A DNA stretch of 35,272 bases from Deltaproteobacteria bacterium (GTDB taxonomy: Bacteria; Acidobacteriota; Holophagae; Holophagales; Holophagaceae): positions 1 to 35,272 of the forward strand of contig JAIFMW010000218.1 in NCBI GenBank assembly GCA_020048105.1. The letters run 5' to 3'. The position numbers and the translations under genes were made by a program. Below the pieces are notes generated by a model. The model was not told the origin of the DNA and made no database searches. It saw nothing but the letters and a program-made list of their open reading frames with translations. Below are positions 4,126-27,373 of this stretch, piece after piece; within the stretch, counting starts at the first letter, position 1, and the number at the start of each line of letters is the position of its first letter.

Positions 4126-5421
4126 TTAGAAATCCTGGGTCAGTTCCGCGACCAGTTCTCGCACGCTGACCAGCTCCTTGAGCTTCCAGCCATTGCTGCC
4201 GGTGAAAAATAGCCCCGTGGCCTTTTTGCCGCTGCGCGCATCTTCCAGGCGATCCGCAATACAGTAGCCCACTTCCCGCGCACCCACGCCATGTTCGCAG
4301 GGGGAAACGCAGTCACTGATGCAACGAATTTTGGGGGCGGTGCCATCCAGCATGGAGGCCTGGAGGCCAGCCACCACCGCTCGGCCTGGCATGCCCACGG
4401 GGGACTTGACGAGCTGAATATCTTTCTTTTCCGCCTTCAGGATCACTTCCTTGAAGTTGGCATCCGCGTCGCATTCCAGGGTGCCGATGAAACGGGTGGC
4501 AATCTGCACGCCCCCCGCACCTAGAGCCAGGAATCGGTCGATATCGGCCCGATCCCAAACGCCTCCGGCAACGATCACGGGGAAATCCCCCCACTTATTG
4601 CGTTCTTCGACGACAGGACCCAGAAGGGCTTCCAGGGAGAAGGCAGGGTCTGCGATCTGCTCGGCGCTGAAACCTTGGTGGCCGCCTGATTCGGGGCCTT
4701 CAAGTACGACGGCATCCGGAAGGCGGTTAAATTTCCGCTGCCAAGTCTTGCAGATCAGCCCCAAGGCTCTGGCCGAGGATACGATGGGCAGCAAGGCGAC
4801 ATCGGCATCTCCTACATAACCCGGAAGGTTCAAGGGCAGGCCCGCCCCCGAAATAATCAACTGGGCTCCGGCGTCCACCGAGGCGCGCACCACGCGCTCG
4901 TACCCTTGGATGGCGCAAAGAATGTTGACGCCCACGGCACCCTTGCCCTCGGAGCGCCGAATGGCTTCCTTGACGATACGAGCCAAGGCTTCGCTGTTGT
5001 TGAGATTCTCAGGCCCGAGTGGCCTGCCCTGGCGCAGTTCGACCATATCGGGGAAGTGATTGCCGGTGCCAATGGCCGAAACAATGCCAACGCACCCCGT
5101 GCGGGCCACAGCGCCAGCCAGACCCTCCCAGGAAACGCCCACCCCCATGCCGCCCTGAATGATGGGATAGGGGAGGTCGAGGTTGCGAATCTTTAGCCTC
5201 GGAAGGGGTTTCACGCCTTCCCCAAGCACCACGGAAGGAATGCTGGCGAGTTTCGAAAAACCGGGTAGCTCCACGGCAGCCGCCGCGTGAAGCAACAGAG
5301 GGGAACGTAGCTGAAGTCCCTTTACGCCTTCGATTTGAAGCAATTCCTTGGCTCGGGCCAGATCTTTTTCGGCTTCGGCCAATAGGGGCAAGCCGGTGCG
5401 ACGGTGAATTTCGGCGGGCAT
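4126..5421 (-). CDS. nitronate monooxygenase-like flavoprotein (TIM barrel), main frame
   Basis: The nitronate monooxygenase/2-nitropropane dioxygenase fold begins around residue 75 with LDLPYPIIQGGMGVGVSWEG. It continues with the barrel segments GVNILCAI, IISGAGLPLNLP, a GPESGGHQGF phosphate-binding/catalytic-region motif, FPVIVAGGVWDRADI, and GAGGVQIATRFIGTLECDA. Such enzymes bind FMN and oxidise nitronates; some relatives have other roles, so the substrate is uncertain. An ATG at 5421-5419 preceded by GGAAGG could start a 431-residue protein. However, the preceding codons in another frame (5404-5803) also look coding, and the first ~75 residues here read as a continuation of that frame. 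The gene is probably frameshifted; see the separate entry. The frame is open to 5535, but upstream of 5421 it looks non-coding. Confidence 0.8.
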   Translation of the reverse strand: MPAEIHRRTGLPLLAEAEKDLARAKELLQIEGVKGLQLRSPLLLHAAAAVELPGFSKLASIPSVVLGEGVKPLPRLKIRNLDLPYPIIQGGMGVGVSWEGLAGAVARTGCVGIVSAIGTGNHFPDMVELRQGRPLGPENLNNSEALARIVKEAIRRSEGKGAVGVNILCAIQGYERVVRASVDAGAQLIISGAGLPLNLPGYVGDADVALLPIVSSARALGLICKTWQRKFNRLPDAVVLEGPESGGHQGFSAEQIADPAFSLEALLGPVVEERNKWGDFPVIVAGGVWDRADIDRFLALGAGGVQIATRFIGTLECDADANFKEVILKAEKKDIQLVKSPVGMPGRAVVAGLQASMLDGTAPKIRCISDCVSPCEHGVGAREVGYCIADRLEDARSGKKATGLFFTGSNGWKLKELVSVRELVAELTQDF

Positions 5422-13163: not shown

Positions 13164-13793
13164 ATGTCCATCTTGCGATCAGTCGGTTTGTGGAGCGTTT
13201 CCTTCGCGCTTTGTGCTGCGGCCTCTGAGCGGAGCATGGGCAGCCTGGATTACCGCGTAAAAATTCGCTTTCAAGGCGAGTCGAATGTTGTCGAAACGCA
13301 TTTCACTCTGATCCCGACCCCTGTGGCAACCACGGCGAATCGCGTAAAAAAAGCCCGCATGGGAGCTTGGCGTCTCGAGGCGCAGCAGCCCAAGAATGCG
13401 GCCTTTTCTCAGGCAATGGTCTTGGCCCGGGTCGAGCGAATGCTGTATTTTTCGGGACCTACGGAACAGACCCTACGGCAAAACTTGGTCGTGCGCCTGG
13501 GCGAAAAGGCCTGTCGCATTTGGATGGCACCGGCCCCCAAGGGCGTCGCAGCCCATGCCTATCTGGCCGAGGTGGCCCCTGGGCTGCTTGCCCTGAACTA
13601 CTTCAGCGGTGCCTTTACCCAGGGCGATGTCGCCAGCCTCGAAATTCAACTGGAAGGCTTCCGCCTCGATCCTGGTGTGGCCCCTTCGGAAGATGGCACC
13701 CGGCTCTTGCGAACACTTAAGCGCCTAGGCGCCACGCCAGCTGAGGATTCGGAGACGAAAGACTCGGAGAATGCCGAGCAGATCGTTCAGTAG
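13164..13793 (+). CDS. exported protein of unknown function
   Basis: A 209-residue protein with a signal peptide (MSILRSVGLWSVSFALCAAA, cleavage near residue 20-22). The mature region is beta-rich and contains YRVKIRFQG and ARVERMLYFSG. The C-terminal ~25 residues are acidic (AEDSETKDSENAEQ). The ATG at 13164 follows GAGAG; an upstream TTG at 13128 would bury the signal peptide. No family is recognised. The 3' end overlaps the 3' end of the convergent gene by seven bases. Confidence 0.7.
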   Translation: MSILRSVGLWSVSFALCAAASERSMGSLDYRVKIRFQGESNVVETHFTLIPTPVATTANRVKKARMGAWRLEAQQPKNAAFSQAMVLARVERMLYFSGPTEQTLRQNLVVRLGEKACRIWMAPAPKGVAAHAYLAEVAPGLLALNYFSGAFTQGDVASLEIQLEGFRLDPGVAPSEDGTRLLRTLKRLGATPAEDSETKDSENAEQIVQ

Positions 13794-16771: not shown

Positions 16772-17653
16772 CTACTCCTGGGAGGGCTTTGGCTTTGGCT
16801 CCCGAATTCCCTTGGATTTCTGACGACTGACTTCAGCCTGCTCCGTGGCGCTGGAAAGTACGACGATCGAAATGCGGCGATTCTGGGAGTCCTTGGGATC
16901 GTGGCCTTCCAGGGGAATGGTGTCTGAATAGCCGGTGGTGCGGCGAACTTGGTCGACTCTTAGTCCTGATGATTCGAGCACGCGCCTGGCCGCATTGGCC
17001 CGTTCCGAACTCAGCTCCCAGTTGGTGTAGGCCTGACTGGCGTACCGCTGGGAATCCGTATGGCCGCCGATGACCACATGGTTGGGTAGCTTGCCCAGTT
17101 CCTGGGCGATCTCCTTGAGAATGGAGAGGGTGTAGGGTTTTACCTTGGAGCTTCCAGAATCGAAGAGTACTTGGGCAGCTTTGTCCTGCACTTGGATGCG
17201 AAGGCCCTCGTCGGTGAAATCCATGGATATCTGGTCTTGGAAGGCCTGCAGGAGCTTGTCTTCCTTGAATGACTTCTCGATGGCGGCGGCGGTTTCCTCC
17301 ATGGCGGCGCGCTCTTTTTCAATGGCGTTGGGATCGGGGCCACCACCATCCCCATCGCCAGGGTTGGGCGACATCCCACGGCCACCGGGCAGGATGCCCT
17401 TGTTGTAGGTTTCGATCATCTCCTTGCCTGACTTGGAATCCCAAAAATCAGGGCCTTCCGAGAAATGCTTGGAGATGGATGCCTTGGTCGCAGGACTGGC
17501 GCTGGCGAGCAGCCACATCAACAAGAAAAAAGCCATCATGGCGGTTACGAGATCGGCATAAGCGACCTTCCAGGCGCCGCCGCTATGACCTGCGGCATGC
17601 CCGCCTTTTTTCTTCTTGATGACGATTTTTACTTCGGGATGCTGTTCGGCCAT
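16772..17653 (-). CDS. motB: flagellar motor stator protein MotB
   Basis: The stator subunit that anchors MotA to peptidoglycan and carries the proton path. A basic cytoplasmic tail (IKKKKGG) precedes one transmembrane helix, WKVAYADLVTAMMAFFLLMW, with the essential Asp34. A plug/linker region follows, including a Gly/Asp/Pro-rich stretch (GDGDGGGPDP), and then an OmpA/MotB peptidoglycan-binding domain with VLFDSGSSKVKP, VIGGHTDSQ, NWELSSERANAARRVLE and DSQNRRISIVV. The length is 293. The ATG at 17653 stands 9 bases after the stop of the mini-ORF described at 17663, with only AGG just before it, so translation may depend on upstream ribosomes. Confidence 0.95.
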   Translation of the reverse strand: MAEQHPEVKIVIKKKKGGHAAGHSGGAWKVAYADLVTAMMAFFLLMWLLASASPATKASISKHFSEGPDFWDSKSGKEMIETYNKGILPGGRGMSPNPGDGDGGGPDPNAIEKERAAMEETAAAIEKSFKEDKLLQAFQDQISMDFTDEGLRIQVQDKAAQVLFDSGSSKVKPYTLSILKEIAQELGKLPNHVVIGGHTDSQRYASQAYTNWELSSERANAARRVLESSGLRVDQVRRTTGYSDTIPLEGHDPKDSQNRRISIVVLSSATEQAEVSRQKSKGIREPKPKPSQE

Positions 17654-17767: not shown

Positions 17768-17798
17768 CTATCTCGGCTTGATCTGGCGAACGACTTCC
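17768..17798. repeat. 31-bp perfect direct repeat, copy at the 3' end of motA
   Basis: This copy contains the final codons and stop of motA. Its partner lies at 17663-17693. Flanking bases differ on both sides, so the duplicated unit is just this segment. Confidence 0.97.
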
Positions 17799-18634
17799 TC
17801 TAACTCCTGGGATCCGGGGCGTTCGGCGGAGGGGATGTTGCGCCGGGCGAATTCCACGGCGGTCACGGGTGCGGCACCATTGCCGAAGGATACGAGGCCC
17901 GCGCGCATGGCGTTGAAAAAATGGGATTCGGTGGCGTTCACCTGGTCGATGTTTTTGGCAAGGGGGGCGATGAAACCATACCCGAGGAGAATGCCCAGAA
18001 AGGTGCCCACAAGGGCCGCACCGACCTTGGCACCGATGACGTTGGGTGGCTGATCCAGGAAACCCATCGTGATCACCACGCCCATCACGCAAGCCACGAT
18101 GCCGAAGGCTGGCATGGAATCGGCCAGGGTGTTTACAGCGGTGCCTGGAGAGGCGCTTTCTGCGTGGTGCACGTCCAGATCCATTTCCATGACCTGATCG
18201 ATTTCGTCGATCTTGGCACTGCCGTTGATAAGCAACTTCATGGAATCACAAAAGAAATCCAAGGCGTGATGGTCGTGGACCATTGAGTTGTATTTCTTAA
18301 ATATGTTGGAGCTATGAGGGTCGTTAACGTCCTGCTCCAAGGCCAGAAGACCGCCCTTCTTAATGTTTACGTAGACCTCGTACTGCATCATCAGGGATTC
18401 CATATACACCGCCTTGGTGTATTTGCTGCCCTTCAGAGGCTTTGCGATATTGGCGACCACAGCCTTGATGACGGAGGGTGGGTTGCTGGCCAGGAAGGCT
18501 CCGAGGCCGGCTCCGAAGATGATGGTGCCTTCGGCGGGTAGTGGGTGCAGCAGCACCCCAATGCTGCCGCCTTCCATCAGGTAGCCACCGATCACGGCGG
18601 CAAACACAACGATAAATCCGATGATTACAAACAT
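17768..18634 (-). CDS. motA: flagellar motor stator protein MotA
   Basis: The proton-channel stator subunit, 288 residues. Four transmembrane segments are visible: FVIIGFIVVFAAVIGGYLME at the start, a second near 33-50, and the pair SMPAFGIVACVMGVVITMGF and ALVGTFLGILLGYGFIAPLA. The cytoplasmic loop between them is large and charged (EMDLDVHHAESAS). The conserved Pro in DSMPAFG corresponds to the functional proline of proton-type MotA. The ATG at 18634 follows AAGGAAGGGG at a slightly long distance. A sigma-28-like promoter lies at 18655-18681. motB follows after 114 bp holding a repeat, a mini-ORF and a hairpin. Confidence 0.95.
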   Translation of the reverse strand: MFVIIGFIVVFAAVIGGYLMEGGSIGVLLHPLPAEGTIIFGAGLGAFLASNPPSVIKAVVANIAKPLKGSKYTKAVYMESLMMQYEVYVNIKKGGLLALEQDVNDPHSSNIFKKYNSMVHDHHALDFFCDSMKLLINGSAKIDEIDQVMEMDLDVHHAESASPGTAVNTLADSMPAFGIVACVMGVVITMGFLDQPPNVIGAKVGAALVGTFLGILLGYGFIAPLAKNIDQVNATESHFFNAMRAGLVSFGNGAAPVTAVEFARRNIPSAERPGSQELEEVVRQIKPR

Positions 18635-18654: not shown

Positions 18655-18681
18655 CATTCGGCAGATCCCTGGAATGCTTAA
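18655..18681 (-). promoter_or_regulatory. sigma-28 (FliA)-like promoter of motA
   Basis: On the minus strand: TTAAGCAT, 11 bases beginning TCC, then GCCGAATG, against the sigma-28 consensus TAAAGTTT-N11-GCCGATAA. The predicted start is near 18648, just ahead of motA. The element sits entirely between the methyltransferase stop (18684) and the motA start. Motility genes are the expected target. Confidence 0.65.
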
Positions 18682-18683
18682 CT

Positions 18684-19463
18684 CTAGGGTATTTTTGGGA
18701 TCCGGTAGAGCAGAAGGCATGCCCCCGGCCGGCCTGGCAAGGGGATTCGGCGGTCGGGTTTAACCCCAGGAATCTGAAAACTGTGGCTGACCAGAAGGGT
18801 TCCCGGCCTCATTTCGGCACAAGCCTTCTCCCAAAGTGCCCCCATCGGAGCCGGGGAAAGAAAGGCAAAGGCTAGGTCGATTTCCTGAAGGGGAAAATTC
18901 CAAAGGCTACCGGGTTGAATTTTGCAATTTCGCTTCCAAGGCAGACACCGGACCCAGGCAATAAACCAGACCAGAGGTGAGGCTTCGACGCCGATGAAGC
19001 TGGCTTCGGGGCGGCGGCAAGCCAGGGCGGCCAGGGGGCCACCCAGCCCCGCGCCCAGATCCGCAATGCGCCAGGGTTCACCCACGGGGATCAGGGTCAG
19101 GAGTTCATTCCAGGCGGGTGATCCCGAGTTGTACAGCGGTACGCGGGTTAGGATGCCACCGCCGAAAACGAGAAGAAGGACCGCCAGTAGGGAAGGGTAG
19201 ACCCAAACCGAGATCGGATTTCCGAGTTGCCAAGCCAAGGCCATGGGCACCAGGATTTGAAAACCTCGCCACCAAGCTCCCAGGCCCCACCCGGCTGCCA
19301 GGGCGGCGGCTAACAGACCTTGTAGGGCGACCCAAACCCACAAGGGGAGCCGTATGGAGATGATTTGAGCCACGCCGAGGAGCAGCAGGAAACTCAGAAC
19401 TTGAGCCGCCAGCGCTTTTAGCACAGGCGGCCCGGAACCCCAGATGGAACTGATTCTCGACAT
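18684..19463 (-). CDS. membrane-anchored SAM-dependent methyltransferase-like protein
   Basis: A 259-residue protein with four hydrophobic helices (about 18-35, 41-60, 65-82, 88-103) followed by a class I methyltransferase domain. Motif I is IADLGAGLGG (133-142), the acidic end of strand 2 is IGVEASPLV (Glu160), and later strands are DLAFAFLSP and GTLLVSHSF. The substrate is unknown; membrane anchoring suggests lipid, quinone or a membrane protein. It precedes motA on the same strand, but motA has its own promoter. It starts 39 bases after the M28 peptidase gene ends, so those two may be co-transcribed. Confidence 0.8.
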   Translation of the reverse strand: MSRISSIWGSGPPVLKALAAQVLSFLLLLGVAQIISIRLPLWVWVALQGLLAAALAAGWGLGAWWRGFQILVPMALAWQLGNPISVWVYPSLLAVLLLVFGGGILTRVPLYNSGSPAWNELLTLIPVGEPWRIADLGAGLGGPLAALACRRPEASFIGVEASPLVWFIAWVRCLPWKRNCKIQPGSLWNFPLQEIDLAFAFLSPAPMGALWEKACAEMRPGTLLVSHSFQIPGVKPDRRIPLPGRPGACLLLYRIPKIP

Positions 19464-19502
19464 GGAACCTCGGAGACATTGTGACTCGGCTGGCGAGGCG
19501 CC

Positions 19503-20537
19503 TCAGTTTAGCTTTCGTTGCCAGAGATCGGGGCTCCAGCGCACAGAAAAGGGCGCGATCTCTCGGATGGGGGCCAGACTTATCGAGAGGCTCGTTTGGG
19601 CATCCAGGCGCAGAAAGGTCTCCAGGATGGCTTCCACGGTGGCCCAATAAAAGACTTTTGGGATCCGGTCGTAAGTGTCATTCACCGTGTGGTAATAGGG
19701 ATCATCATCACCCACACAGAAGAAGAGAAAGGGAACACCACGATCCAAGAAGGGCCCCTGGTCCGATTGGGCATCGTATTTCTCAAAATCGGGCACCACC
19801 AGCACCTTGGAGGTGGCAAAGCCGCTTAAAAGATGGGGTTTCAAGGATGCCGTAAAGGATGTTCCGCCCACGAAAATCCGACCCTGGGTACCCTGGGCGA
19901 TCATATCCAAATTGAGCACGACCTTGATCTTGGCCAGGGTGATAGGGGCCGGTGGCGCGGAGGCAAAGGCCTCGGAGCCCAATAAACCGGCCTCTTCGCC
20001 ATCGAAGAGGCAGAACACAACGGTGCGGGCGGGGGGATGGTTCTTGAGGTATTCGGCCAGATGAAGGACCGCTGCCGTACCCGAGGCGTTATCGTCTGCG
20101 CCGCACATCACTTGGTTATTTCGAATTCCTATGTGGTCGAAGTGGGCCGTGAGGAGGATGTATTCCGTTGGGAATTGGGCGCCTGGCAAGTAGCCCACTA
20201 CATTGATACCGTTGCCCCGGAGCGAGGTAAAGGCTTGGCGGAAACTTGTTCCAAATTGGGATAGGCCCAAGGTTGTAAACCGCTGTTCGAGCATCGTACG
20301 GGCGGTTTCATTCCCCGCACTGCCAAGCTTTCGGCCTCCCAGTTCCGGGGCGGATAAAGCCTTCAGGTCATCGAGCAGGGGCTGCTGACCCAGGCGGGCG
20401 AGGGTCGGTGTGAAGTCCACTGGGACAGGAGAAATGATTGCCGTGACTGCAGCCGGGCTGCTGCCACCACCGCAAGCGCAGAGCAGAAGGGCTGGCAGCA
20501 AAAGAATTGCAAGGCGTTGCTGAAGTGGGGCGGACAT
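19503..20537 (-). CDS. M28-family zinc aminopeptidase lipoprotein
   Basis: An exported metallopeptidase, 344 residues. The lipoprotein signal ends LLLCAC (Cys22). The M28 zinc ligands are all present in order: AHFDH, GADDNASG, FDGEEAGLLGSEAF (catalytic Glu plus ligand Glu), LNLDMIAQ and YYHTVND. These enzymes release N-terminal amino acids from peptides, and here would act at the outer surface or periplasm. The start is ATG 20537. It is divergent from gluQ with a 76-bp gap. Confidence 0.93.
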   Translation of the reverse strand: MSAPLQQRLAILLLPALLLCACGGGSSPAAVTAIISPVPVDFTPTLARLGQQPLLDDLKALSAPELGGRKLGSAGNETARTMLEQRFTTLGLSQFGTSFRQAFTSLRGNGINVVGYLPGAQFPTEYILLTAHFDHIGIRNNQVMCGADDNASGTAAVLHLAEYLKNHPPARTVVFCLFDGEEAGLLGSEAFASAPPAPITLAKIKVVLNLDMIAQGTQGRIFVGGTSFTASLKPHLLSGFATSKVLVVPDFEKYDAQSDQGPFLDRGVPFLFFCVGDDDPYYHTVNDTYDRIPKVFYWATVEAILETFLRLDAQTSLSISLAPIREIAPFSVRWSPDLWQRKLN

Positions 20538-20613
20538 GGTTCCTTTTTATCAGAGCCAGGTTCGAGTCCAAATGAATCTGTGAAACTGATCCTGAAAGAA
20601 CCCTTGGGGCCCC

Positions 20614-21570
20614 ATGATCAACCCAATCAACCAGGACTCTGTACTACCGCCGCCCGTGGGTCGCTTCGCCCCTTCACCTACGGGCATTCTGCACCTTGGC
20701 AACTTGCGCACGGCATTGGCCTCTTGGCTTTCAGTGAAGGCCAAAGGGGGCGCCTGGGTTCTTCGAATCGAAGATGTGGATCGCAACCGCTGTCGTTGGG
20801 AGCTCGCCGAGCGGCAGATTCGAGATCTTGCCGCCCTGGGCTTGGAGAGTGATGGTCCGATTCTTCGGCAAATGGACCGGGGTGAAACCTATCGCGCCGC
20901 CCTATCCAAACTGCACGCAGATGGGCTCCTTTATGCCTGCGACTGCACGCGGAAGGATCTGGCCCTGATGGCCGCCGCGCCCCATGCTGAAGATGGGCTG
21001 CGGCCCTACCCAGGCACCTGTCGAGATCGCACCCTTACGGAATTGAAACCCGAAGCCATCCGATTTCGGCTCCCCAAAGGTGAAGTCGCTTGGCGGGATG
21101 GGGTGCACGGAGCCCAGGTCGATGATCCCAATCGCCTCACGGGCGATCCTCTGTTGCATCGGCGTGATGGCTGTTTCGCCTACCATCTGGCGGTGGTGGT
21201 TGATGATGGTGCCCAGGGCATCACCGAAATTGTGCGCGGCGTTGATCTGCGCAGCGTAACCGCCACCCAGATCCGTCTTCAGGAAGCGCTCGGAATCCCT
21301 CGGCCCGCCTACGCCCATGTGGCCCTGGTTGCCTCGCCGGACGGCGCGCGCCTGGGTAAGCGCGGTGGAGCTATGGGAATCGAGGAACTGCAAGCCAGCG
21401 GCCTCGCGATTCCTCAGATCCTGGGCTGGCTGGGGCATTCCCTCGGCTGCCTGGATCGGCCCGAACCTTGTATTGCCGAGGATTTACTTCGGGCCTTCGC
21501 CTGGGATCAGGTGCCTGATCAAGGCGTTGAGTTCATTTGCCGCAGGGCGGAAAAGGACTTGGACGCTTGA
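20614..21570 (+). CDS. gluQ: glutamyl-Q tRNA(Asp) synthetase
   Basis: A truncated GluRS paralogue that attaches glutamate to queuosine at position 34 of tRNA-Asp. It has the class I features GRFAPSPTGILHLGN (HIGH-like, 27-30) and RLGKRGGA (KMSKS-like), and zinc ligands Cys109, Cys111, Tyr132 and Cys136 (YACDCTRKD, PYPGTC). It lacks the GluRS anticodon-binding domain, as expected at 318 residues. The start at ATG 20614 follows TTGGGG. The last 52 bases overlap the 3' end of the lipoprotein gene on the other strand. Confidence 0.93.
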   Translation: MINPINQDSVLPPPVGRFAPSPTGILHLGNLRTALASWLSVKAKGGAWVLRIEDVDRNRCRWELAERQIRDLAALGLESDGPILRQMDRGETYRAALSKLHADGLLYACDCTRKDLALMAAAPHAEDGLRPYPGTCRDRTLTELKPEAIRFRLPKGEVAWRDGVHGAQVDDPNRLTGDPLLHRRDGCFAYHLAVVVDDGAQGITEIVRGVDLRSVTATQIRLQEALGIPRPAYAHVALVASPDGARLGKRGGAMGIEELQASGLAIPQILGWLGHSLGCLDRPEPCIAEDLLRAFAWDQVPDQGVEFICRRAEKDLDA

Positions 21571-23228
21571 GAGGATTGAGCGGAGGGCAAGCCCGCCACG
21601 CGGAAGCCACCTTGCGGCGTTCCTGGGGAAGAAAGCATCAGCTGACCCCGCTCTGGAACTGGTTGAGTGAACAACATTTTGGAAGCCCTTTCGAGCGCGA
21701 TGGAGGTCGAGGTGTCACCTCCCATGGAGCCGAATTGACCATGATCGATCTGCACGGAGTTGCCCGAGCGAAAGGCCCAGCGAGCATCCCATCCCGCCAA
21801 ATCCGTAAAATTTGGGATCTGCACATCGTGAGCGCTTCCCCTCAGCCAGCCTTGGCTGAATAGCAGGTACCAATAAACCTGTTCTTGGTGGCTGTTTTGA
21901 CTCAGGGAGAACTGTTGCAACCTGGGTAGTGGGCTCACCGAGGACCAGCGGAGTCGTGGCCGTGGGTAGGGTGCCATCAACCAGTCCACCTGAAGCGGCG
22001 GAACAGGTGTGGGGAAGGTGATCGTTAAAGGCCCTGGCAGGTCTGTGCCACCGCCGTAGATCATCTCGGAATGCTCATTTTCGAAGGCGGCAAAGCCATA
22101 GCCATAGCTGTCGCCAACTTCCCCGTGCGTCGCGGGAAAGGCGGCATAAGAGGTCAACGCCGTGCCCTCTCCCAAGTCGAAATATTGCCCACCAGATGTG
22201 AAATAGCGGACGATGCCCTGAAGGGTGGTACCGCCCCCAATGGGGCCGTAGGTGATGGCCTGGGCGGGTCCTGGATCAAAACCCTCGGTGGTGAAATCCA
22301 CATGGCGCACCGCATCGCCCTTGGCCTCTCGGGCACGCTCCAGAAAAAATCGCGTAGGTGCGTGACTCACAGGATCGCTGAAGGTCCACCCCGCGAAATC
22401 GCCTCGGCCTTGCACTACCCGCGTTTGATAGGCGCTGCTGCTGCCTTCAAAGGGCAGCGTGGCGCCGCTGGTTACGAGGTACCCCGATGCCGAAGCATGC
22501 CCGCGCAGGGCTCCTTCCAGCGCGAAAAAGGTTGGGCTGGGTCCTGGCGGTGGATTGCAAATGAAGTCAACACCCAGCGATCCCGATTCCGCCAAGGTCT
22601 GAAAGAGGTAGTTCATCTGGAAGGATTGAAAGGTGTCGATGGTGCAAACGTAGCCATAGGCGAGGCCGTAGCGACCCGCGGGGTCGGTCACCGCCGCGCG
22701 ATAGGTGCCCCGATTACCTTCCAGAACCCTCCATGGCGCGTCGCCGTCCTTAAAGACCATGAAGGGGAGGTTGGCCGGAGTCGAATTGGTAAAGGTGGAA
22801 ATGGGCAGGAGCCGGGCCACGGGCACGGTCACGGTCAACGGCAGGGCCTTCTCGACGAAATTTCCACGGGCATGAAGGATCAGATTTCGCACGCCTGGGG
22901 CGGCCGAGAGGGGAACCTTCACCGAAACCAGAGCGTTTACCGGCTCAGCCCCGAAAACGAGAGGGGTTGGCGACACGGAGCCTGTTAGATCCGTGCCCTG
23001 CGTATCGAGAAAGAGTTCCGCAGTGCCGGCGTAGCCGTTTAGCGAGTGAACCTTCACCCGGAAGATGCCCGTCGTATCGGGCGCTACGGAGAGCGCCACC
23101 GACTCTCCGCTTAGCTCCACATCGGGCTCTGGAGGCGGAATGATCGGGTCCTGCAGGGCGCACCCAAGGGCCATCACCAAGGCCACACTGCTAACCCATT
23201 TTTGGAGGTTGCTCCGGATGACCTTCAT
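21519..23228 (-). CDS. large lipoprotein of unknown function
   Basis: A 569-residue exported lipoprotein: signal peptide with MALGC (Cys23), then a Pro-rich linker (PIIPPPEPDVELSG). About residues 30-140 look like one or two Ig-like beta domains (SVALSVAPDTTGIFRVKVHS, VSVKVPLSAAPGVRNLILHA), followed by a beta-rich remainder with many Gly/Tyr/Trp. The Ig-like part may be a stalk and the rest a surface domain; no enzyme motif is seen. The ATG at 23228 with GGAG upstream gives the lipoprotein signal; the longer frame to 23357 does not. The C-terminus overlaps the end of gluQ antisense by 52 bases. Confidence 0.8.
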   Translation of the reverse strand: MKVIRSNLQKWVSSVALVMALGCALQDPIIPPPEPDVELSGESVALSVAPDTTGIFRVKVHSLNGYAGTAELFLDTQGTDLTGSVSPTPLVFGAEPVNALVSVKVPLSAAPGVRNLILHARGNFVEKALPLTVTVPVARLLPISTFTNSTPANLPFMVFKDGDAPWRVLEGNRGTYRAAVTDPAGRYGLAYGYVCTIDTFQSFQMNYLFQTLAESGSLGVDFICNPPPGPSPTFFALEGALRGHASASGYLVTSGATLPFEGSSSAYQTRVVQGRGDFAGWTFSDPVSHAPTRFFLERAREAKGDAVRHVDFTTEGFDPGPAQAITYGPIGGGTTLQGIVRYFTSGGQYFDLGEGTALTSYAAFPATHGEVGDSYGYGFAAFENEHSEMIYGGGTDLPGPLTITFPTPVPPLQVDWLMAPYPRPRLRWSSVSPLPRLQQFSLSQNSHQEQVYWYLLFSQGWLRGSAHDVQIPNFTDLAGWDARWAFRSGNSVQIDHGQFGSMGGDTSTSIALERASKMLFTQPVPERGQLMLSSPGTPQGGFRVAGLPSAQSSQASKSFSALRQMNSTP

Positions 23229-23361
23229 CGACGCTGCTCCGGCAGATTGTTCTTTTTGAGCGCTGGTGTCACTACCGTACCACCGCAGCTGTCGGCTGAA
23301 GGAGCCAATCTGGCCATGCTCTTTTCCTTCGCCGTCGGGGTTGGCGATGGGGCGCACTAGG

Positions 23362-23388
23362 TTTAGCTTTCCGGGAAGAGGCCGATGC
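23362..23388 (+). promoter_or_regulatory. sigma-28-like promoter of the 590-residue exported protein
   Basis: TTTAGCTT, 11 bases beginning TCC, then GCCGATGC, against TAAAGTTT-N11-GCCGATAA. The predicted start is near 23395, about 25 bases before the ATG. The form matches the motA promoter closely, including the TCC that follows the first box. Confidence 0.55.
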
Positions 23389-23419
23389 CGTCAAACTGGA
23401 TAAAACCTTAGGAGCTGAT

Positions 23420-25192
23420 ATGACTTCCTTGAAGTATTTCCTTGCGGCTGCAGGCTTCACGCTCGCGGCCCAAGCCAATCCTGATGTGTTGATGCACCTT
23501 TCGGCCCAGGCCAAGAGCTACACCTATTACCCAAATCCTGCCGCCTCGAGGAGTGCGTTCTTGGCCACAACCCGGCTCTTTACCAAGGCAGGCAAGGACG
23601 AGAGCCTCATGGGCAAGAGCTTCACCACGAATTGGGGGATTTCTTTAGATGCCTTTGATGGCGGGGTGCTGCTGGCTGAGTTCGCGAGTGAGCCCGGCAA
23701 TCCCAAGCGCGTACTGGCCCTTGGCACCATCAAGCCCTTGGAAATCCTGAAGCGCCTGAAGGCCCGCAAAGACGGGGCCGGTTGGTCCTATCGCCTGCTG
23801 CCGTCGGCCGGGGGCGAGGAACGGTTCGTGGTACTGCGCCAAGGCGTTTTGCTCCTTTCGGACCATCGTGAATTGTTAGAAGTGCCCGCTACCTTGGAAG
23901 ACTTGGGTTCCCTGCGGTCCTGGATGTCGGGGCTGGATATGGTGCTGGGCACCACCCGCAGCCAACTGACCGCGGGTTTGATGCAAGCCAAACAGGGCAT
24001 GGCCATGCTTCAGGCCATGCCGGATCAACCGAAGAAGGAGGGCGAGGAGAACCCCAAGGCTGATTCGGCCAATCTGGCGATTTTGAAACCGGTTTTCCAG
24101 TTCTTAGAACCCTTCGTGAGCAACCTTCAGGCCTCTGCCGATACCGCGGCTCTGGGTGTGGGTTTCCGGCCGGAAGGCGTGCACATGAAGGCGCAGGTCT
24201 TCTTCAAACCGGGCAGTCCTTTGGGGGCCGATACCAGCTCGCTTTCAGCGGGCACCCGGTTGCAGGGTTTGACGGGCATGGACCATATCACCGCGGGCGG
24301 TTTTTCGGGCCCAGCCATGGCGCCACTGGCGGGCTTAGGTACCGTAATGATTCGTGGCATGGTGGGGAAAACGGCCGATCCAGACCTCTTGAAGCGCTGG
24401 GAGGCCAGCCAGGAAATCACCACGAAAGGACTGCAGAACATTGCCTGGTCCCTGGCGATGCCGACCAAGCCGGGCGCTCCTTGGCTGACGGGAATCCACG
24501 CGGCCATGAAGGTGGCGGATGCTCGTGCCCACCTTGCGGCCATGGCCGATGGTCAGGAACTCTCGACCCAGTTGCTGAAGGCTCTGCCGAAGGAAGCCCG
24601 CCTCTCGCTCCCCATGACTTTCCAGCGCGGCATTCTGCCGGATGTTCCGAGCCTGGGCGTTTCCATGGATCTTTCGGGTCTCATGGGTGAGAAGGGAATG
24701 CCGCCCCAGGCCGGTGCGGCCATGACCATGATGCTAGGTGGCCCTAATTTTCAGATGTCCTATGGCCTGTTGAACGACACCACGATCGTAATGACCGTGG
24801 GGGATGCCAATGTTTTGAAGGATGCCTTGGCTCGGATGAAATCAGGCCAGCTTCTCGAACAGCAGCCTGCCGTGCAGAAAGCCTTGGGCATGCTGCCCGC
24901 AGGGGCGATTTACCAGATGCTTTTCAGTCCGGCCGGTTTCACTCAGGCCGCCAAGACCTTGATGGCCACCCTGGGGGGCGGCCAGAAGGTGGCTTTGCCG
25001 ATTTGTTCGGATAGCCAGATTGCCGTGGGTGTCTACTGGACCCCCGCCGGATTGGGCTTCAATGGCGTAGCCCCAGTGGCGGCGATGAATGACCTGAGTG
25101 CCTTGGTCAAGGCCTTTGATTCCTTGAGCGGGGACAAGAAGGGCACTCCCGCCAAGGCCAGCAAGACCCCTGCCCGAAAGGCGAAGAAGTAA
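23420..25192 (+). CDS. exported protein of unknown function, possible FliA-regulated
   Basis: A 590-residue protein with a signal peptide (MTSLKYFLAAAGFTLAAQA) and no Cys at the cleavage site, so secreted or periplasmic. The body alternates beta strands and Ala/Leu/Met-rich helices; a hydrophobic region (FSGPAMAPLAGLGTVMIRGM) looks like a buried strand-helix unit. The C-terminus is a Lys/Ala/Pro-rich tail (GDKKGTPAKASKTPARKAKK). It recalls DUF3352-like large periplasmic proteins, but I cannot confirm a family. The ATG follows TAGGAGCTGAT, a good ribosome binding site. A sigma-28-like promoter precedes it and an 18-bp inverted repeat follows, so it is probably a single-gene unit. Confidence 0.85.
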   Translation: MTSLKYFLAAAGFTLAAQANPDVLMHLSAQAKSYTYYPNPAASRSAFLATTRLFTKAGKDESLMGKSFTTNWGISLDAFDGGVLLAEFASEPGNPKRVLALGTIKPLEILKRLKARKDGAGWSYRLLPSAGGEERFVVLRQGVLLLSDHRELLEVPATLEDLGSLRSWMSGLDMVLGTTRSQLTAGLMQAKQGMAMLQAMPDQPKKEGEENPKADSANLAILKPVFQFLEPFVSNLQASADTAALGVGFRPEGVHMKAQVFFKPGSPLGADTSSLSAGTRLQGLTGMDHITAGGFSGPAMAPLAGLGTVMIRGMVGKTADPDLLKRWEASQEITTKGLQNIAWSLAMPTKPGAPWLTGIHAAMKVADARAHLAAMADGQELSTQLLKALPKEARLSLPMTFQRGILPDVPSLGVSMDLSGLMGEKGMPPQAGAAMTMMLGGPNFQMSYGLLNDTTIVMTVGDANVLKDALARMKSGQLLEQQPAVQKALGMLPAGAIYQMLFSPAGFTQAAKTLMATLGGGQKVALPICSDSQIAVGVYWTPAGLGFNGVAPVAAMNDLSALVKAFDSLSGDKKGTPAKASKTPARKAKK

Positions 25193-25235
25193 GCCACGTT
25201 GGGGGCGCAACCCTAATTTGGTCGTGAGGCATCAC

Positions 25236-25282
25236 GGGCCGCGCAAAACAACCTGAACGGCATGGGTTGTTTTGTGCGGCCC
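25236..25282. repeat. 18-bp inverted repeat with 11-base loop
   Basis: Arms 25236-25253 and 25265-25282 pair fully, allowing one G-U pair. The sequence after the right arm is AAAAAT, and no T run follows the stem on either strand, so it is not a standard intrinsic terminator. It lies 44 bases after the stop of the exported protein gene and may still end or stabilise that transcript. Confidence 0.85.
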
Positions 25283-25292
25283 AAAAATATTG

Positions 25293-25338
25293 CGACCTTG
25301 TGGTGTGAAAAAAGAGTCGTATTTTTTGTCTCAGGTCG
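25293..25338. promoter_or_regulatory. nested dyad just upstream of the sigma-28-like promoter
   Basis: CGACCT (25293-25298) and AGGTCG (25333-25338) enclose an A6 (25308-25313) and T6 (25322-25327) pair. The right arm ends five bases before the candidate promoter at 25343. It could be a regulator site or an AT-rich upstream element. Unproven. Confidence 0.35.
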
Positions 25339-25342
25339 AAAT

Positions 25343-25369
25343 TTAAGCTTTCCGTGGGCTTGCCGAGAA
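25343..25369 (+). promoter_or_regulatory. sigma-28-like promoter of the response regulator/V4R operon
   Basis: TTAAGCTT, 11 bases beginning TCC, then GCCGAGAA: seven of eight matches in the -10-like box (GCCGATAA) and six of eight in the -35-like box. The predicted start is near 25376, giving a leader of about 100 bases. Confidence 0.6.
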
Positions 25370-25376
25370 AGACACT

Positions 25377-25411
25377 GGCGCGGGTCTGTATCCCGGCAAA
25401 GTCGGGACGCC
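25377..25411 (+). promoter_or_regulatory. structured leader with two mutually exclusive hairpins
   Basis: GGCG (25377-25380) can pair with CGCC (25408-25411). Inside, the CCCG at 25392-25395 can pair either with CGGG at 25381-25384 or, as TCCCG, with CGGGA at 25403-25407. Each hairpin has a seven-base loop. No known riboswitch consensus is matched. Confidence 0.35.
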
Positions 25412-25478
25412 CTCGTGCCACCGCAATTCACTGGTTTTCACGAGTGTTTCCCGTCAGGTCCCTTCTGGGGGTATCGAC

Positions 25479-26705
25479 ATGTCGCAGGGGTTGAATTGGG
25501 TTCTGGGCGAATCCCCCTCCGCGCATTCCCGAATGGGGCTGGAGCCTGGGCCCGATTCGCCACTTCCCGTGACATTGACCCGTGTATTGGTCGTGGACGA
25601 CGAACCCGAAATTCTGACCCTCGTCGCAGAGTGCCTAGCTGGGAAGTTCCAGGTGATGACCGCCTCGACGGGGGAAAAGGCCCTGGAGCAGTTGTTCGTC
25701 TTTGATCCCGAGATCCTGCTAACAGATATTCACCTGCCCGATATCGATGGCATCGAGTTGATTCGCCAAGTTCTCCTGGTGAAACCGAACCTGCGAATCC
25801 TGGTGATGACCGGGTTTGGCACGCCCCAGATCCAAGACCAGGCTCTTCGGCAGGGTGCGCTGCGGTTCCTGGAAAAGCCCCTTGATCTGATGACACTTGC
25901 CGATCATCTCTTGGAAATTTCGCATCGTTCCTTTGGTTTGACTGGCGATGGGATCGATGTGATCGACCTCACCCAGGTCATGCTGCTCTGCCGCAAAAAT
26001 GGCATTGTCGAATTCAAGGCGGCGGGTCGAACGGGGTTGCTGGTCTTCGAGGATGGGCAGGTGATCCACGCCTCCACCATCGAGGTTCGGGGAGATCCCG
26101 CCTACTTCGCCATGGTGCTTTGGAGGGTCGGTCAGTTCCAAACTCTTTCGATCGAACCGATCGATCCCGAGCGAACGATCCATATCTCCACGGAGATGCT
26201 GCTCATGGAGGGCGCTCGAATCCTGGATGAGCATGAACAGGCAGCACGCCAAACGGCACCCTTAGATGAAGTTCTTCCACCGATTCTCATCCCCCTGGCG
26301 GCCGAGAAGGCTGACGTCAGAACTCAATTTCAACCGGAGGTCGCAATGCTTCAAATCAAAGATCTTCTCAATGTTTTCATGAAGGAAGAAAGCGCTCGGG
26401 CCGCTCTGGTGGTGGACTGGGACGGCTTCGTGATTGAAGGGGTGGTCAAGGATCTCTCCCTGGGGATTGAAGCCATCGGTGCGGTCATTTCCACCAGTCT
26501 GGGCTCCACGCAGGTCATTGGGCGCGAACTCCAGGTGGGCAATATCAATCTCGCCATGTTCGAGTTTGAACACGGAACGGTCTTGGTGCGGGTGCTTGGG
26601 AAAAGTGGAATCCTGGCCGTACTGGTGGACCCCACGGCCAATCTCGGCCTGCCCAGGTTGCAGATTCGCAAATTGGCGCCACAACTCGAAGCAGCCCTCG
26701 GCTAA
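25479..26705 (+). CDS. response regulator: REC - PATAN (DUF4388) - roadblock/LC7
   Basis: A 408-residue protein without a DNA-binding domain. After a Pro/Ser-rich N-terminus, the receiver (about 34-150) has VLVVDDEPEIL, phosphoacceptor Asp83 in LLTDIHLPDIDG, and the conserved Lys133 in FLEKPLD. A DUF4388/PATAN domain follows (about 160-250: DVIDLTQVMLLCRKNGIVEF, GLLVFEDGQVIHA). The C-terminal part (about 285-400) matches the roadblock/LC7 fold (AALVVDWDGFVIEG, MFEFEHGTVLVRVLG). PATAN response regulators control pilus motors in cyanobacterial phototaxis, and roadblock proteins act on small Ras-like GTPases in polarity. Both point to motility or polarity control, here under a sigma-28-like promoter. 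The start has GGGGG upstream. The V4R gene follows after 11 bases. Confidence 0.9.
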   Translation: MSQGLNWVLGESPSAHSRMGLEPGPDSPLPVTLTRVLVVDDEPEILTLVAECLAGKFQVMTASTGEKALEQLFVFDPEILLTDIHLPDIDGIELIRQVLLVKPNLRILVMTGFGTPQIQDQALRQGALRFLEKPLDLMTLADHLLEISHRSFGLTGDGIDVIDLTQVMLLCRKNGIVEFKAAGRTGLLVFEDGQVIHASTIEVRGDPAYFAMVLWRVGQFQTLSIEPIDPERTIHISTEMLLMEGARILDEHEQAARQTAPLDEVLPPILIPLAAEKADVRTQFQPEVAMLQIKDLLNVFMKEESARAALVVDWDGFVIEGVVKDLSLGIEAIGAVISTSLGSTQVIGRELQVGNINLAMFEFEHGTVLVRVLGKSGILAVLVDPTANLGLPRLQIRKLAPQLEAALG

Positions 26706-26716
26706 GGGGGTGGGCG

Positions 26717-27373
26717 ATGACCAAATACGTCGACTGCCCTGATTCCTTTGTGCCCCTCTTCGAGGAGGCCGAGCGGCTGATTGAACCTACGTTTCTTGAT
26801 CAGCGTTGGGACCCGACCCACGGGGCGATGCTGGTGGGCGGTGAACGCTATGTCATGTACCGTTCCCGTTCCATGGCCATTCATCTGCGAGAAGAACTCG
26901 AACGGGTGGTTGGCCCCGCCGCCGACAGCGTTATCTATCGCTTCGGCAAGGCCTGCGGAAGCGCGGATGCCGACTACTATTTTTCGCTGCATCCCGAGTT
27001 GCCTGCTCCCTTGCGGCTCGCCATGGGACCGGTGGTCTTTGCTCTGGGTGGGTATGCCATCGTCAAGGTGCTTCCCGAGAGTGCGCCTTCTCCCGACGAG
27101 AACTATCTTTTGGTCTTCGAGCACCCAAATTCTTATGAAGCTGATGCCTATGGCACGCAGGGACTCACTAGCGAGAAGCCCGTCTGCTATCTGAATTCAG
27201 GATATTCCGCTGGATGGTGCGGGAAGGCCTTTGGCCTGACCCTTGAGGTCAAAGAAGTCGCCTGCACCGCCAAGGGGGATCCCTTCTGTCGTTTTGTCAT
27301 GGCCCCTCCCGCACAGCTCCGCAAACGCGTGGCGGAACTGTGCGAAACCTGGGGAATTGTGCCACCTAGGTGA
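26717..27373 (+). CDS. stand-alone V4R-domain protein
   Basis: A 218-residue protein whose C-terminal half is a V4R domain (4-vinyl reductase/XylR_N type): YLNSGYSAGWCGKAFGLTLE then EVACTAKGDPFCRFVMAPP, with the family Cys pattern and Gly-rich turns. V4R domains bind small hydrophobic ligands or metal-linked cofactors and usually sit on transcription factors or kinases; here no output domain is attached. The N-terminal half is less conserved. The ATG follows GGGGGTGGGCG and stands 11 bases after the response regulator. The natural reading is a ligand-binding partner for it. The 3' end overlaps the ccsA stop by eight bases, convergently. Confidence 0.85.
   Translation: MTKYVDCPDSFVPLFEEAERLIEPTFLDQRWDPTHGAMLVGGERYVMYRSRSMAIHLREELERVVGPAADSVIYRFGKACGSADADYYFSLHPELPAPLRLAMGPVVFALGGYAIVKVLPESAPSPDENYLLVFEHPNSYEADAYGTQGLTSEKPVCYLNSGYSAGWCGKAFGLTLEVKEVACTAKGDPFCRFVMAPPAQLRKRVAELCETWGIVPPR

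Follow-up and report, generated by a model that had tools for sequence, protein, structure and literature searches.

The window analysed here, a stretch of 35,272 nt, is a contig (C52) of a 2.95 Mb assembly (246 contigs, 82% complete) from a Holophaga-like member of the Acidobacteriota. It carries a motAB pair on the minus strand and, on the plus strand, the gene of an apparently exported protein followed by a two-gene signalling operon. The features considered are the following.

16772..17653, minus strand: motB (Pfam MotB_plug and OmpA)
17768..18634, minus strand: motA, flagellar motor stator (NCBIfam TIGR03818 MotA1 above cut-off; Pfam MotA_N and MotA_ExbB)
18655..18681, minus strand: putative FliA (sigma-28)-type promoter of motA, TTAAGCAT-TCCAGGGATCT-GCCGAATG (8+11+8)
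23362..23388, plus strand: weak candidate FliA-like site, TTTAGCTT-TCCGGGAAGAG-GCCGATGC (8+11+8)
23420..25192, plus strand: protein of 590 aa; judged from its sequence, the N-terminus looks like a signal peptide; no family match
25343..25369, plus strand: putative FliA-type promoter of the REC-PATAN operon, TTAAGCTT-TCCGTGGGCTT-GCCGAGAA (8+11+8)
25376..25420, plus strand: predicted 5'-leader stem-loop of 18 pairs, with the same predicted fold in this genome and in its closest relative
25479..26705, plus strand: response regulator of 408 aa, REC - PATAN (DUF4388) - roadblock-like (Pfam)
26717..27373, plus strand: XylR_N-V4R protein of 218 aa, second gene of the operon after an 11-nt gap (Pfam V4R and XylR_N)

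FliA (sigma-28, also sigma-F or sigma-D) recognises flagellar promoters with the consensus TAAAGTTT-N11-GCCGATAA. The initial annotation described three elements of this kind, placed them before motA, the exported-protein gene and the REC-PATAN operon, and assigned all three units to the motility regulon. We found the elements at the positions given above, and the spacing of 8+11+8 is indeed identical in all three. The exact degenerate pattern, TTWAGCWT-N11-GCCGA, matches these three places and no others in the 2.95 Mb assembly. Since it was derived from the three sites themselves, this uniqueness is little proof.

Scans with controls gave no clean genome-wide excess of the motif, whether the pattern was exact, allowed one mismatch or was looser. 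With one mismatch, 12 matches were found in the genome, compared with 21 for the reversed control, and the looser pattern TYWAG-N14-GCCGA gave 36 matches against 52 for controls; across four genomes, looser scanning yielded 46 matches at a spacing of 15-16 and 20 at a spacing of 20-21. At the genome scale most of the strong matches examined lie inside open reading frames, and such matches are commoner within genes than before them, a distribution that the initial annotation had named as evidence against its proposal. In E. coli, ChIP-seq places 30 of 52 FliA sites within genes, and computed predictions of such sites perform poorly (PMC4183435). Because more than half of the FliA sites are intragenic there too, intragenic matches do not decide the status of individual sites; the evidence must come from position and conservation instead of from the motif, and counting alone cannot define a regulon.

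For this we compared three genomes of the same genus and about 20 of the same family, the closest being a Holophaga sp. metagenome-assembled genome (G001), and built a matrix of two boxes separated by a spacer of 14-16 from 30 FliA-type sites upstream of motA, flagellin and methyl-accepting chemotaxis protein (MCP) genes in Holophagaceae. None of these sites comes from the window, and since they were picked with a simple consensus score the set is biased towards the classical consensus. When the matrix was trained on motA and flagellin sites only, scores of at least 12 were found before 10 of 37 MCP genes and in 17 of the 504 stretches used as controls (Fisher p 2.4e-6), which indicates that the matrix generalises beyond motA and flagellin. 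In the genome studied here, MCP genes on two other contigs (C143 and C186) have FliA-type sites 43-78 nt ahead of their start. Not every MCP gene carries one, and none was found at the MCP genes examined in one relative (G008).

The form that emerges for Holophagaceae is T(T/C/A)AA-N15/16-GCCGA(A/T)A. It shares with known FliA/sigma-28 promoters the same two boxes and spacing, the location before motA, flagellin and MCP genes and a FliA family member encoded in a flagellar cluster. It differs from the consensus in the second base of the -35 box, which is mostly C or T (TCAA/TTAA) instead of A, and in the -10 box, where GCCG is often followed by AAA, ATA or TGA instead of TAA.

Upstream regions were scored for 28 genes of the window, which are long open reading frames selected by hand. 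The best scores are those of motA and of the REC gene (15.7 each), followed by the exported-protein gene (9.7) and then by values of 8.5 and 8.4. When the approximately 70,480 positions of the window are ordered by score, the sites of motA and REC come 3rd and 4th, and that of the exported protein comes 37th. The first two ranks are unchanged when the whole genus or the MCP sites are dropped from training, while the third falls to 56 and 50, respectively. In simulated 150-nt regions a score of 15.66 was reached in 0.13% (probability 0.0013) and a score of 9.68 in 4.8%. Two positions outrank the motA site: one at 4454 (minus strand) lies inside a nitronate monooxygenase gene, and one at 13271 (plus strand), apparently within a coding frame as judged by eye, was set aside.

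The motA site occupies the 49-bp gap between motA and the preceding open reading frame (18684-19463) and can be read as TTAA-N15-GCCGAATG, with a TAAA-like -35 box, a GCCGATAA-like -10 box and 15 bases between the boxes, within the FliA range of 14-16. In most of 15 relatives, TYAA-N15/16 and then a CCGA core stand in the corresponding position ahead of the start codon; no such site was seen in two of them (G004 and G014), and some others deviate. G003, a genome of the same genus, retains the -35 box, has GTCGAATA as its -10 box where the window has GCCGAATG, and differs in the spacer.

The REC site, read as TTAA-N15-GCCGAGAA, likewise has both boxes at FliA-type spacing. Response_reg (5.9e-21) and DUF4388 (1.8e-14) are both above cut-off in the downstream regulator, and the roadblock-like domain Robl_LC7 (1.4e-4) falls just below it, with 21.9 bits against a cut-off of 23. 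A close orthologue, 88% identical, was found only in G001 among the 24 relatives searched, and the V4R gene adjoins it there as it does here. The orthologous site in G001, TTAAGGAT-N11-GCCGAAAA (TTAAGGATTCTTTTAGGGTGCCGAAAA), scores 21.3 compared with 15.7 in the window; all 10 box bases (TTAAG and GCCGA) are identical and the spacing is kept, and 6 of 14 spacer bases are identical, a conservation read from this one orthologue, the sole high-identity carrier. We also scanned distant REC-PATAN homologues (25-33% identity) for FliA sites, and one reached 13 and none was convincing; as these homologues are paralogues, their scan says little.

The third site is of a different quality. It has TTTA for TNAA, that is, a T at the near-invariant A of the -35 box, and its score of 9.7 is near background, with a chance of 0.048 per region (about 5% of random 150-nt regions). 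The 590-aa protein itself has no match in Pfam or NCBIfam, a profile search against the PDB gave nothing meaningful and an AlphaFold2 model was unusable at a pLDDT of 31.6. Five of the 92 other genomes from the class encode a homologue, and a FliA-type site is absent before all five (G001, G011, G019, G052 and G080). In G001, where the orthologue is 86% identical, the best upstream score is 1.9 and the region ahead of the ribosome-binding site aligns poorly, despite the divergent neighbour still being present as a minus-strand open reading frame of 572 aa (612 aa in the window). The comparison of orthologous upstream regions that the initial annotation had proposed divides its three sites: that of motA is kept in most relatives and that of REC in G001, and that of the exported protein is not kept.

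These observations bear on the original view that all three sites are FliA promoters, that the TCC shared after the first box is a lineage-specific extension of the consensus and that the motility regulon includes the exported protein. The view draws on the three sites being the sole exact matches in the genome, on the position of the exported-protein site 31 nt before the start codon, as with other FliA promoters, and on the G011 homologue (L202, G011:C1:1528617-1531736), which lies directly downstream of an MCP gene and is the one independent sign that this protein could be linked to chemotaxis. Against it stand the missing counterparts described above and the TCC itself, which is present at that offset in only 3 of the 30 independent training sites and is replaced within the genus by TCT at the G001 REC site and by TGC at the G003 motA site. 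We consider this view improbable as a whole. Going by the aligned sites, TCC is no extension of the consensus, and the exported-protein site appears at best weak and recently arisen and is more likely a chance resemblance. The membership of the exported protein in the motility regulon is unsupported, and neither claim is carried forward.

Chance might equally be invoked for the REC site, leaving motA as the only gene with a real FliA promoter. Equally good matches do occur inside genes (two others in the window, and most of the exact matches examined elsewhere), and in this single genome the probability of the REC score is about 0.035 after correction for 28 upstream regions. However, the G001 site keeps the ten box bases and the spacing over a spacer identical at only 6 of 14 positions, and is closer to the consensus, and we consider a chance origin of the REC site improbable.

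The corresponding sigma factor gene is present in the genome. At C206:7198-7866 we found fliA, the sole member above the FliA_WhiG cut-off and also above the cut-off of the FliA subfamily (TIGR02479), located between flhG and fliM in a flhA-flhF-flhG-fliA-fliM-fliN cluster. A flagellin gene was not found in this 82% complete assembly. In G003, two FliA-family sigma factors are above cut-off (G003:C246:9147-9812 and G003:C29:15915-16583), the first of which adjoins fliM and flhF on a contig that also carries motA. Recognition of the sites by a FliA-clade paralogue of the WhiG type instead of the flagellar FliA would fit the two G003 proteins, the FliA promoter specificity of WhiG and its predicted promoters in a pilus cluster of Rubrobacter (PMC8325347), but it is the least probable of these alternatives, as the single above-cut-off member here sits in the flagellar cluster and the second G003 copy likewise neighbours fliM and flhF.

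Taken together, the rank under an independent matrix, the conservation in relatives and the presence of fliA bear out the proposed promoter before motA, and rank, the boxes kept in G001 and fliA do the same for the REC-PATAN-roadblock/V4R operon. We thus predict, with a probability of about 0.8, that motA and the REC-PATAN operon are each preceded by an ordinary FliA (sigma-28) promoter in its Holophagaceae form. The REC-PATAN-roadblock/V4R operon would then be a new candidate member of the FliA regulon outside the known flagellar genes. From sequence we infer FliA binding, the transcription starts and the target of the regulator.

Under the prediction of two ordinary FliA promoters, motAB and the signalling operon would be late flagellar genes transcribed by RNA polymerase bearing FliA, and production of the response regulator would coincide with the onset of motility. 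To judge from its PATAN and roadblock domains, the regulator may act by protein contact on a motility machine or a polarity factor and not on DNA. Signalling genes under FliA control are known from proteobacteria, including ycgR, yhjH and aer of E. coli (PMC4183435) and bifA of Pseudomonas putida (PMC5300878). In these cases, as proposed here, expression of a signalling protein that adjusts motility depends on a late flagellar sigma factor; what differs is the nature of the product, here a REC-PATAN-roadblock regulator accompanied by a V4R protein. In the literature searched for FliA together with PATAN, we found no report of the two being connected.

The cyanobacterial response regulators PixG, PilG and TaxP2 also combine PATAN and REC, and their PATAN domain binds the pilus motor PilB (PMC10519157). 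The protein of the window has these domains in the opposite order, carries an additional roadblock-like domain and is expressed from a putatively flagellar promoter. Furthermore, predicted targets of a FliA-clade sigma factor of Rubrobacter lie in a type IV pilus cluster (PMC8325347). By analogy with both cases, the REC-PATAN protein might plausibly act where swimming and surface motility meet. The more specific scenario, in which the late sigma factor makes a PATAN-roadblock regulator and a ligand-binding V4R partner with an additional structured-RNA leader and thereby couples swimming to type IV pili or polarity as a switch between two motility machines, is speculative and we regard it as unlikely.

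Our search of the literature found no description of a FliA regulon in Holophagaceae (Acidobacteriota). The present analysis provides a usable matrix for FliA promoters of this family and, with the REC-PATAN candidate and its conserved promoter, a testable link between the timing of flagellar gene expression and a PATAN regulator whose relatives steer pili.

The leader of the REC-PATAN operon has a structure of its own. The predicted stem-loop begins about 7 nt past the promoter, and its start coincides with the expected start of the transcript, a further point in favour of the REC promoter. Compared with G001, one pair is changed on both sides in a compensatory manner and three are kept through one-sided changes; the first 69 nt of the leader have a z of -2.67. 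An Rfam search of the leader for a riboswitch gave no match, and the two sequences that share the fold are too few for a claim of a regulatory RNA. A 19-pair inverted repeat with one G-U pair and no T-run after it lies at 25236-25282, downstream of the exported-protein gene and ahead of the REC promoter, and is possibly a terminator or a repeat element.

Finally, in flagellin leaders of Holophagaceae relatives, an AAGGAGGATG ribosome site is closely preceded by a GGA-loop hairpin (for example GGCAGCACGGATGCTGCC). Such leaders were observed at L101, L105, L109, L111, L122, L126, L127 and other loci, upstream of flagellin genes, and the hairpin is similar to the CsrA site in the leader of Bacillus hag.
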